Below are positions 4,249-31,289 of a stretch of 64,000 nt of DNA, piece after piece; the first letter of the stretch is position 1, and the number at the start of each line of letters is the position of its first letter. The notes beneath the pieces were generated by a model. It made no database searches. It saw only the letters and a program-made list of their open reading frames with translations, and had not been told where the DNA came from. The position numbers and the translations under genes were made by a program. Location: positions 1-64,000 of the forward strand of contig MSDW01000002.1 in assembly GCA_001914405.1 (NCBI GenBank). The letters are read 5' to 3'. The DNA is from Candidatus Methanohalarchaeum thermophilum. GTDB lineage: Archaea > Halobacteriota > Methanonatronarchaeia > Methanonatronarchaeales > Methanonatronarchaeaceae.

Positions 4249-5325
4249 TTAGAATTTGCCAACGATTTTTCTCATTATCTTGTTGAAATAGGATTTAATT
4301 CTTTGGTGTTTCTTTACCATTATCACCTGTTTGTCGAATCTTTCCCCAATCTCTTCCGGCACATTACCAAACAGTGCACTTGGTATTAGACCTTTCTCTG
4401 TTGCTCCTAATACGATCATATCGACATCCCTATCCTCTGCGTACTCGATTATATCATCTGCAACCCCCTTCTTTTCTCTAATCGCTACATTCTCTACTTT
4501 ATCCAATCCTTCTTCTATTAAATGTCTTTTATGTTTATCTAAAAGGTTATTAGCTTTCTTTTCACCTTTTTCAAAAACATTAACTAGAATAATCTCTGAA
4601 TCGTATTTTTTTGCAAAGGATTTAGCTATTGATTCGGATAACTCAACATTTCTACCACCAGCCACAGGTATCAGTATCTTTTCAGGTTTGTATTCCTCCA
4701 TTGCCTTAGCTACTGAAACATCACAAGGAGCATTTTCAACCACATAGTCTATCGTGGAACCTAAGAAATAATCAGAAAACCTCTTTCGCTTACCTCTCCA
4801 CCCTAACAAGATTAAATCAACATCTTTTTCGTAAGCCAGATTAGTAATACTTTTTCCTACATCATGGCCCACGGCCGTAATTTTTCTAACAGGAACATCC
4901 TCAATATATTCATCGACTTCTTTTAATATCTCTTTTTGTTCTTTACTGATATATCTATGTCCTTCGTCTAATGGAGTCTGTTCTGGTACGGTTACTATCG
5001 TTGTTACAATTACCTCTCCATTTTTCTCTTTGGCTATCCTTTCTCCTATCTTTGAAAGTCTCTCCGTGTGAATCGGATTAGCTATCGGAACCAAAACCTC
5101 ATATGGTCTTTCAGTTGGTTTTCTTTCTTCTTTCACTAACCTAGTTTCTTCTTTTATTTCCTTTTCTCTAAGATGTCCTCTCGAATAAACAAAAAAGATT
5201 AGAAACCCTACTAAGATCCATATTATTGCTCCAGCCCACGCGATTGGGCTGTATGCAAATAAATAAACGGCTAGGAAGAGTTTCGTTATTATACCTATTA
5301 TAGGCACATAAGGAAAGTAAGGCAT
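4249..5325 (-). CDS. C-terminal half of a split permease-Usp fusion: two TM helices plus tandem Usp domains
   Basis: This encodes 358 residues. The first ~50 form two membrane helices (MPYFPYVPIIGIITKLFLA, then a second hydrophobic stretch ending FFVY). Two universal stress (UspA) domains follow, each with an ATP-loop-like segment: LLGWRGKRKR...STIDYVV in the first and VLGATEKGLIP..FGNVPEEI in the second. No ribosome site precedes the ATG. The frame continues upstream as DELDYGYV, which is how intact amino acid permeases run into helix 11. The stop of the permease gene lies only 14 bp away in another frame. I therefore read it as the rest of one permease-Usp gene broken by a frameshift, either a pseudogene, a phase-variable gene, or a base-call error. 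Confidence 0.85.
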   Translation of the reverse strand: MPYFPYVPIIGIITKLFLAVYLFAYSPIAWAGAIIWILVGFLIFFVYSRGHLREKEIKEETRLVKEERKPTERPYEVLVPIANPIHTERLSKIGERIAKEKNGEVIVTTIVTVPEQTPLDEGHRYISKEQKEILKEVDEYIEDVPVRKITAVGHDVGKSITNLAYEKDVDLILLGWRGKRKRFSDYFLGSTIDYVVENAPCDVSVAKAMEEYKPEKILIPVAGGRNVELSESIAKSFAKKYDSEIILVNVFEKGEKKANNLLDKHKRHLIEEGLDKVENVAIREKKGVADDIIEYAEDRDVDMIVLGATEKGLIPSALFGNVPEEIGERFDKQVIMVKKHQRIKSYFNKIMRKIVGKF

Positions 5326-5339
5326 TACATATCCATAAT

Positions 5340-6593
5340 CTAATTCATCTCCTCTCTCTCTCTTCTTAGTTTTATAGCTGCATAGTTAACCTGTAAGAAA
5401 AGTAAAAGAAACATTACATCAGTGGCTGCTGCTACATCTTCTATTGGAAGGGTAACTGCCATTCCAATGATGAGTGCACCACTGAAAAAAACGGAGAGAT
5501 ATGGAGTTTTCTTTTCAGGGTGAACCTTTTTGAATGCCTCTGGCAATACATAGTCTCTACCCATAGCAAAACCGACTCTGGTGCTAGAAAAAGTTGTTGC
5601 ATTGAGTGCAGACAAAGTAGAAAATATACCAGCCACCAATATCAGCAATGTACCAAAAGGTAATACTTGATTAGCTGCTCTAGCAAATCCTAATTCACCA
5701 AAATGACCAAGAACCTGCCAAAGAGCTGGATCCTCTGGTAAGCCTGTTGCATGCCTCTGAGCCGCCTCTAAGAGCCCAGGAGTTAATTCTATTGGACCTA
5801 GTAACACCACTCCCACTAACATGTAAATAGTTACTACTGCAAGCATTGAATAGAAAACTGCCTTAGGGACATTTTCCTTAGGGTTTACTACTTCTTCTCC
5901 GCTTTGAACAATTATTTCGTATCCCTCAAAAGCTATAAAGGTTAATCCCATAGCGATAAATACACCGCTAAATCCCTTTGGTAAAAATGGACGAAAGTCA
6001 GCAGCTGGATTGGGCGTTCCCAAATAAGCTCCTAAGCCAGCTATTATAAAAAGAACAATAACCGTTACTTTAATTAATGTTACTATGTTTCCTGCTAGTC
6101 CGGTTTCCTTAGCTCCTCTGTAGTTTATATAAGTGAACAAAACTCCAGCAAAAACCGCAAAAATTTTGTGCAAAATGGATTCGGAAACACCAAATGTTAT
6201 CCCAAAGTATTCTACTAGTAGTAGGGTTACGAAGGACCCAAATCCTAGGCAGTAGAGTGAACCGGCCACAGCATGAGCAAACCAACTCATCCAACCTGAT
6301 ATGAACGCCTGGGATCGGCCTAGGGCTTCTCTTACCCATAGGTATCCTCCTCCAGCTTCAGGAATAGCACTACCTAACTCAGCGTAAGCCATTCCCGTAA
6401 AAATGGTTACAAAACCATTTAGAGCAAAGACCAAAAAAAGTGATGGCCCAGCTTCACCTGCAGCAAGTCCTGATAAAACGAATATTCCTGCACCTATCAT
6501 TGCTCCTACGCCAATCATCGAGATATCAAACAAAGAAAGAGTTCTAACTAAAGAAGCTTCTTCAGAGGAATCATTTGTTGCCATAGACTTCAC
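5340..6593 (-). CDS. APC-family amino acid permease, N-terminal ~10 TM helices (frameshifted)
   Basis: This encodes 417 residues of an amino acid-polyamine-organocation transporter. The N-terminus has SLFDISMIGVGAMIGAGIFVLSG, the substrate-binding unwound helix 1 of the family, then GSAIPEAGGGYLWVREALG and AFEGYEIIVQSGEEV. About ten membrane helices are visible, against twelve in the family; the last two lie in the next frame downstream. The break follows a CT dinucleotide tract at 5352-5362 (GA on the coding strand), and loss of one unit would join the frames. The start is GTG at 6593, and its first bases overlap the stop of a small upstream gene (GTGA), implying coupling. Substrate unknown; haloarchaeal relatives are annotated as amino acid importers. 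Confidence 0.88.
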   Translation of the reverse strand: MKSMATNDSSEEASLVRTLSLFDISMIGVGAMIGAGIFVLSGLAAGEAGPSLFLVFALNGFVTIFTGMAYAELGSAIPEAGGGYLWVREALGRSQAFISGWMSWFAHAVAGSLYCLGFGSFVTLLLVEYFGITFGVSESILHKIFAVFAGVLFTYINYRGAKETGLAGNIVTLIKVTVIVLFIIAGLGAYLGTPNPAADFRPFLPKGFSGVFIAMGLTFIAFEGYEIIVQSGEEVVNPKENVPKAVFYSMLAVVTIYMLVGVVLLGPIELTPGLLEAAQRHATGLPEDPALWQVLGHFGELGFARAANQVLPFGTLLILVAGIFSTLSALNATTFSSTRVGFAMGRDYVLPEAFKKVHPEKKTPYLSVFFSGALIIGMAVTLPIEDVAAATDVMFLLLFLQVNYAAIKLRREREEMN

Positions 6594-6721
6594 CTGAAAG
6601 GTCCTTTATTGTATTCGTCTTTTTTTATTTTTTCTACTACATATTTTGAATGAAGAACAAATATAAGTAAACCTAGCCAAGCTAAGATAGATAGAATAAT
6701 TCCAAGAATTAAATCATCCAC
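6590..6721 (-). CDS. Small single-span membrane protein coupled to the permease
   Basis: This encodes 43 residues starting with GTG behind a GAGGTGG ribosome site. Residues 4-24 (LILGIILSILAWLGLLIFVLH without its flanks) form one membrane helix, followed by a basic cytosolic tail ending NKGPFR. Its TGA stop overlaps the GTG start of the permease by two bases, so the two are probably translationally coupled. Small proteins of this type often accompany secondary transporters as accessory or stabilising subunits; that role here is inferred from position only. Confidence 0.65.
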   Translation of the reverse strand: MDDLILGIILSILAWLGLLIFVLHSKYVVEKIKKDEYNKGPFR

Positions 6722-6781
6722 TTCAACCACCTCTTTATTTTTTTAATTGAAAAATCTAATTTAATTTGATTTAAAATATTT

Positions 6782-7684
6782 TTAGAAACTTAATTTATCC
6801 TTTAAAGTTTTAAGTCTTTTTCTTTTTTTAATTATTACTACATTCTCGTTTGAATTAAGGGCTATTTTTTTTGGTATTGAACCAAAGGTTGGCTTTTTAA
6901 ATCTACTTAATTGCGTTGAACCAAGGCATACCGTATCAAAGTTCTTAGATTCATTTATTATGGACTCGACTATATTCTCCCTATTGTATATCCGTAGCTT
7001 ATAATCTTCTCGAGAGATGTTGGCTTCTTCGATTTTTTCCTTTAGTCTTTCTCTAGTTTTATTTTTACTATTATTTTTTCCATTTATGTGTATGATATTT
7101 AATTTGGATTCCTGTGATTCAGTTTGAAATTGATTTGCTCTTTTTAGTGTTTCAAGTGTGTTTGAGTCTTTTTCCTTTTTTATAAATGCTGCAACCTTAC
7201 CGATCTTTGGTTTACCTGGTTTTATTATATTTACTTTACATGGAACGTATTTTAAGATCTTATCTACTTTAGAACCAAATATAAGTTTATTTTGGCTTCG
7301 TTCACCATCCCAGCCCATGTATATTTGGTCTATGTTTTGTTTTTTTACATAATTGATTACCGTCTTCTCAAATTTTCTTCCTGCCATAGCTTTGCTATCG
7401 AAATCGAAATTATCGGAAGTTATTTTGTCTCTAGCTATTTTTAAAATAGCTTTTTGTATTTCTACGATTTTTTTGTCTGGTATTTCTACTTTTGGACTAT
7501 TTAATTTATCTCTTCTTGTTAATGGAGTTTGTTCGGGTAAATTAATAAAGTTGAATCCTATTATTGAACTTTCTTTATATGAGTTTGCAGATGCCTTTGC
7601 AAAATTAATTAAATTTTCTTGAATTTCTGGATAAGCTAACAAAACTAGTATTTTTTCCTTTCTTGACTTCTCCTGATCTTTCAT
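6782..7684 (-). CDS. Tandem universal stress protein (UspA) domains, soluble
   Basis: This encodes 300 residues with two Usp folds. The first begins KEKILVLLAYPE and has YMGWDGERSQNKLIFGSKVD. The second ends VCLGSTQLSRFKKPTFGSIP. The second repeat's G-x-n-G-S-x-P pattern resembles the ATP-binding loop of the family. It is a paralogue of the Usp part of the permease gene downstream but has no membrane segment. A GAGGT site precedes the ATG. It is the first gene of the minus-strand transporter locus and is divergent from the Lrp-type regulator at 7896. The likely role is nucleotide-responsive modulation of the transporter, which is inferred. Confidence 0.82.
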   Translation of the reverse strand: MKDQEKSRKEKILVLLAYPEIQENLINFAKASANSYKESSIIGFNFINLPEQTPLTRRDKLNSPKVEIPDKKIVEIQKAILKIARDKITSDNFDFDSKAMAGRKFEKTVINYVKKQNIDQIYMGWDGERSQNKLIFGSKVDKILKYVPCKVNIIKPGKPKIGKVAAFIKKEKDSNTLETLKRANQFQTESQESKLNIIHINGKNNSKNKTRERLKEKIEEANISREDYKLRIYNRENIVESIINESKNFDTVCLGSTQLSRFKKPTFGSIPKKIALNSNENVVIIKKRKRLKTLKDKLSF

Positions 7685-7895: not shown

Positions 7896-8630
7896 ATGAG
7901 TGACCTCGATAAAGTAGACAAAAGAATAATCTACAGGCTATCAAAAGACTCAAAAAACATAAATGCACCAGAGCTAGCTGAAGAACTAAATGTTTCTTCT
8001 GCAACAATAAGAAACAGAATAAGGAAGCTCGAACAAAAAGAAATAATAAAAGGGTACCATGCAGAAATAGATTACACAAAAATCAATAATAAACTAACTG
8101 TCCTATTTAAATGCTCTTCACCATCAATAAAAGACAGACCAAAATTAGCAAAAAAAACCCAAACACTAAAAAATATCGTCCAAATAAAAGAAATTACATC
8201 AGGAAGCGTAGAAGATCTTTTAATAAAAGCAGTCGTACAAGACTCCGAAGAAATAACAAAAACCGCAAACAAACTAGAAGAAATAGGTTTAAAAGTAAAA
8301 GACGAAGACTTAATAATAGAAGAATACTTCTCATCTTATAGCAAATTTGGGCCAAAAGAAGACATAGAAGACAGAGTAGTCAAATTCAAAAAACTAAGCG
8401 GTAAATCAGAGATAGCAGACATCACACTCACCGAAAAAAGCAGCATAAGCAATAAAAAAATCAAAGAAATCGCCGACATACTACCAGAAGAATGCCTAAT
8501 AGTAGCTGTAGAAAGAAAAAAATCCATAATCTCACCAAACGGCGAAACCAAGTTAAAACCAGGCGACATCATCTCCCTATTCTCCTCAAAAGGAATAGAC
8601 CAAGAAACACTAAAAACCATACTAGGCTAA
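7896..8630 (+). CDS. Lrp/AsnC-type HTH regulator with C-terminal TrkA-C (RCK_C) domain
   Basis: This encodes 244 residues. Residues 1-55 form an AsnC-type winged helix: LDKVDKRIIYRLSKDSK, then LAEELNVSSATIRNRIRKLE with the recognition helix, then IKGYHAEID. The last ~70 residues (from SEIADITLTEKSS to LKPGDIISLFSS) match the RCK_C fold, which binds small ligands in K+ and anion transport proteins. This domain pair is common in haloarchaea. Divergence from the Usp/permease genes suggests it controls them in response to an amino acid or an ion; this is inferred. The intergenic space of about 210 bp would hold both promoters. Confidence 0.85.
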   Translation: MSDLDKVDKRIIYRLSKDSKNINAPELAEELNVSSATIRNRIRKLEQKEIIKGYHAEIDYTKINNKLTVLFKCSSPSIKDRPKLAKKTQTLKNIVQIKEITSGSVEDLLIKAVVQDSEEITKTANKLEEIGLKVKDEDLIIEEYFSSYSKFGPKEDIEDRVVKFKKLSGKSEIADITLTEKSSISNKKIKEIADILPEECLIVAVERKKSIISPNGETKLKPGDIISLFSSKGIDQETLKTILG

Positions 8631-31241: not shown

Positions 31242-31289
31242 ACTCTACTCTACTCTACTCTAATCTAATCTAATCTACTCTACTCTACT
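31242..31289 (+). repeat. Pentanucleotide tandem array (ACTCT/AATCT)
   Basis: Four ACTCT units, three AATCT units and two more ACTCT units run head to tail, followed by a partial unit. It lies inside the relic zone and is too short and simple to be CRISPR. Confidence 0.9.

Follow-up and report, generated by a model that had tools for sequence, protein, structure and literature searches.

The fusion of an APC permease to Usp domains is a known architecture in haloarchaea, in which the permease is followed by Usp and a further Usp gene is adjacent (PMC3102087). A gene of Candidatus Methanohalarchaeum thermophilum located in the window (the whole stretch of 64,000 nucleotides analyzed here) has the same organization, including a separate Usp gene beside the transporter (6782-7684), but a frameshift divides it in two. 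Rather than an intact member of the APC permease-Usp fusion family, it is a disrupted descendant. Two other types of described genes are relevant to this locus. In bacterial phase-variable loci, the reading frame is set by the copy number of a short intragenic simple sequence repeat (SSR) (PMC11868660, PMC3711429), as it is here, although the repeat of the window gene is short and unconserved, its variation, reversibility and switching are hypothetical, and the paralogs are broken without repeats of this kind. Indel mutation or sequencing error has been given as the origin of most singleton fs-genes (the GeneTack class comparable to frameshifted pseudogenes; PMC3711429). The window gene resembles them in that the frame transition is found at the same place in no homolog, and differs from them in the presence of a single lesion located at a repeat.

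A permease-Usp gene split across two reading frames

The first open reading frame (ORF), on the minus strand (5340-6593), encodes TM 1-10 of an APC-family amino-acid permease and ends prematurely at a TAG codon (5342-5340) following the residues ...KLRREREEMN. It matched the Pfam domain AA_permease (E 4.8e-44), and its best NCBIfam match was TIGR00909, with a score below the cut-off of that family. Translation is likely to start at the ATG at 6584, which is preceded by GGTGA. The second ORF (4249-5325, minus strand) encodes the second half of the same gene, with a match to AA_permease_C (TM 11-12; residues 2-51, E 4.8e-5, 23.8 bits, just missing the cut-off of 27 bits) followed by two Usp stretches matched by Pfam, in which the nucleotide-binding motif, GWRGKRKRFSDYFLGS, was judged intact by inspection. 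The frame of the Usp half reads open upstream of 5325 through ...KKRERGDELDYGYVMPYF, and its in-frame extension, LCSYKTKKRERGDELDYGYV (5326-5385, minus strand), overlaps the end of the permease out of frame. The upstream limit noted for this open frame is KKRERGDELDYGYV. Thus, the detection of AA_permease in the first ORF and of AA_permease_C and then Usp in the second indicates that one transporter is encoded across two frames: the permease ORF and the helix 11-12/double-Usp ORF are a single gene split by a frameshift. The domains found on both ORFs, whose frames differ by one 2-nt unit, bear out the initial annotation of a permease-Usp fusion with a broken frame, and the match to AA_permease_C agrees with its assignment of helices 11-12 to the frame of the Usp half.

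The frame break is located at a dinucleotide tract, (AG)6 on the coding strand and (CT)6 on the plus strand (5352-5363, gene on the minus strand). A tract had correctly been placed at the junction by the initial annotation but was read as (CT)5C (5352-5362), which is one base too short. The tract unit at the junction, 2 nt, is not a multiple of three. Loss of one unit restores a single uninterrupted frame, as had been proposed; the junction then reads LRRERGDELDYGYVMPYF and is as long as its intact counterpart in the closest paralog, IRREYGHKLDYGYVMPYF. Repair of the frame by a gain of 1 nt would make the junction one residue too long.

The two halves might also form a working split gene, in which the second ORF would re-initiate at the ATG at 5325-5323, or be joined to the first by recoding, to produce a permease core and a TM 11-12/Usp subunit. 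This ATG is only 14 nt past the permease stop, the frame is kept open in both halves, and the Usp motif is retained. However, inspection revealed no Shine-Dalgarno-like sequence at a suitable distance from the ATG at 5325 and no heptamer of the X XXY YYZ type before the permease stop; the lack of this slippery heptamer led us to reject programmed -1 frameshifting. In addition, recoding would take a +2 or -1 shift, the permease would be without TM 11-12, and all relatives are fused. A working split gene is therefore unlikely.

Relatives in other genomes

Relatives were sought as best matches in 40 related genomes. The junction was open in one frame in 12 relatives from other genomes (L009, L011-L020, and L022), 11 of which were 736 to 795 aa long, L020 being of 597 aa. 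Both domains are in frame in these 12 relatives, whereas the Usp domains of the window gene are present but in a different frame from the permease. The initial annotation had named relatives with two separate genes as evidence that would refute it; instead, they carry one fused gene, and permease and Usp halves encoded by two separate intact genes were found in none of the relatives examined. In the draft genome of a relative from the same class, the permease-Usp gene (L010; G002, C4:14367-16714) has a frameshift near residue 245, where a T5 run is present. Scanning for named relatives gave no match in viral contigs and distant matches only in genome contigs.

Dinucleotide tracts and the possibility of phase variation

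The (AG)6 tract was the sole 6-unit dinucleotide run, and the longest, in the 1.26 Mb sampled of the 2.14-Mb genome. In this sample, 51, 10, 1, and 1 dinucleotide tracts were seen at lengths of 9, 10, 11, and 12 nt, respectively, versus 47, 10, 5, and 0.7 in order-2 simulations. Runs of at least 10 nt thus occurred at about chance frequency (12 seen versus approximately 16 simulated). The AG tract was present in none of the 15 other homologous junctions, that of the paralog included, where the longest dinucleotide run was of 7 nt. No other out-of-frame coding SSR with units of 2 to 7 nt was evident in the 1.26 Mb sampled, nor was any set of switch-like genes; richness of a genome in such coding SSRs is a supportive criterion for phase variation that is not strictly required. 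Most of the other SSRs of the sample had units of three or were intergenic 5- and 6-mers. The 5- and 6-mers were frequent in contig C2, mostly outside genes, and a pentanucleotide array, ACTCT x9.6, was present in the window at 31242-31289, with no ORF of 100 aa across it.

These results bear on the earlier suggestion that the transporter is switched on and off through changes in tract length, which would arise by slipped-strand mispairing. The break coincides exactly with an uninterrupted (AG)6 tract, one 2-nt unit restores the frame, and phase variation is known in bacteria for transporters, among other functions (PMC3711429). However, the tract has just six units and is unconserved at homologous junctions, the sampled genome displays neither an excess of dinucleotide tracts nor a wider pattern of out-of-frame coding SSRs, and both paralogs are broken elsewhere, at sites devoid of such repeats. 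We regard the suggestion as weak and switching as improbable. A particular form of it, in which AG slippage would switch the full-length form of an archaeal transporter, the off state being the permease core without the Usp domains, is very improbable. If the locus were a switch, it would be one of the rare examples of phase variation by SSRs in archaea.

Disruption of the two paralogs

The genome contains two further permease-Usp genes, C1:893576-895868 and C1:1388385-1390571, which are both disrupted, at sites outside long repeats. The closest paralog, C1:893576-895868, is approximately 57% identical to the window copy in the Usp half and 75 to 83% identical in the permease. Its junction is intact, but a frameshift is present near permease residue 131. 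An 89-bp block is identical between the two copies (window 6205-6293 and C1:895495-895583), in surroundings that are approximately 70 to 84% identical; fewer than 1e-5 identity runs of this length are expected by chance. The frameshift of the paralog adjoins the end of the block, and this frameshift and a 9-nt insertion are both found near the block ends. Synonymous divergence between the copies was 0.5 in the first 131 codons versus 2.7 after. The block is a recent gene-conversion patch. Overall, divergence between the window gene and this paralog was mostly synonymous (dN 0.10 to 0.34, dS 0.50 to 2.85), indicating that selection has acted on the window gene over most of its history.

The third copy, C1:1388385-1390571, contains an in-frame TAG codon in TM 12, where a 66%-identical homolog from a genome of the same family (G001) has Trp. 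This codon could be a nonsense mutation, or it could be decoded as pyrrolysine because two PylRS genes scored above the family cut-off in this genome, in agreement with a published description of Ca. Methanohalarchaeum thermophilum HMET1 (PMC9071458).

Origin of the frameshift

The main rival to a mutation is an assembly or sequencing error, the true tract of the organism being in frame and the gene intact. The lesion lies within the longest dinucleotide run of the sample, a type of site at which indel errors accumulate, and the T5-associated frameshift of L010, from a draft genome, could share this origin. To evaluate the error rate, ORFs of G001 (0.83 Mb sampled) were compared with 1.26 Mb of host sequence. 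Comparison of 256 orthologs (77,594 residues, approximately 233 kb aligned) gave six rows with a frameshift, on four loci, which were identified by inspection as an integrase-like gene, additionally containing a TGA codon, two transposases, and an ACR3-like arsenite transporter. The latter (C1:1180591-1181252), a non-mobile gene, combined a frameshift with a TAG codon. Lone frameshifts in non-mobile genes were absent from the 256 orthologs, indicating that assembly indels are uncommon. The 95% upper bound on lone indels was approximately 1 per 77 kb, or a chance of approximately 3% for one 2.3-kb gene, which the repeat tract raises somewhat; the sample leans to conserved genes and provides a better bound on sequencing error than on accessory-gene decay. 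The closest paralog also has a lesion of a form unusual for a read error: it lies at a recombination patch and close to a 9-nt insertion. An error at the tract is thus conceivable but rather unlikely.

A recent slippage mutation disrupting the window gene, in a genome losing all three members of the family, is the explanation that we favor, with moderate confidence. The junction of the paralog has the length expected for one AG unit fewer, and the genes of the 12 relatives are open through the junction. The alternative offered by the initial annotation, a recent mutation, is accordingly preferred over switching: all three copies are broken at different places, suggesting ordinary recent gene damage rather than an on/off switch. 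An ancestral (AG)5 tract would have gained one AG unit by strand slippage. Translation would then stop after TM 10, and TM 11-12 and the Usp domains, which are presumably regulatory, would not be made within the transporter, leaving a truncated protein that is most likely non-functional. Against decay, the junction frameshift was the only lesion found in the window copy, and the TAG codon of the third copy could be read as pyrrolysine; reversion could occur at a modest rate in a 12-nt AG tract. In this halophilic methanogen, disruption has affected all three APC-Usp transporters in parallel, in one case at a gene-conversion boundary. This suggests that the lineage no longer depends on these transporters, the need for which may have been lost.

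Genes adjacent to the transporter

An ORF of 46 aa with one hydrophobic stretch (6590-6730, minus strand) lies just upstream of the permease and overlaps its start region. It matched no Pfam or NCBIfam family. A similar ORF, of 59 aa, precedes the paralog, indicating that the 46-aa ORF probably encodes a small partner of the permease in the same operon. Beyond the separate Usp gene, the transporter is flanked by a divergent gene for a regulator of the Lrp/AsnC type containing a TrkA_C domain (7896-8630).
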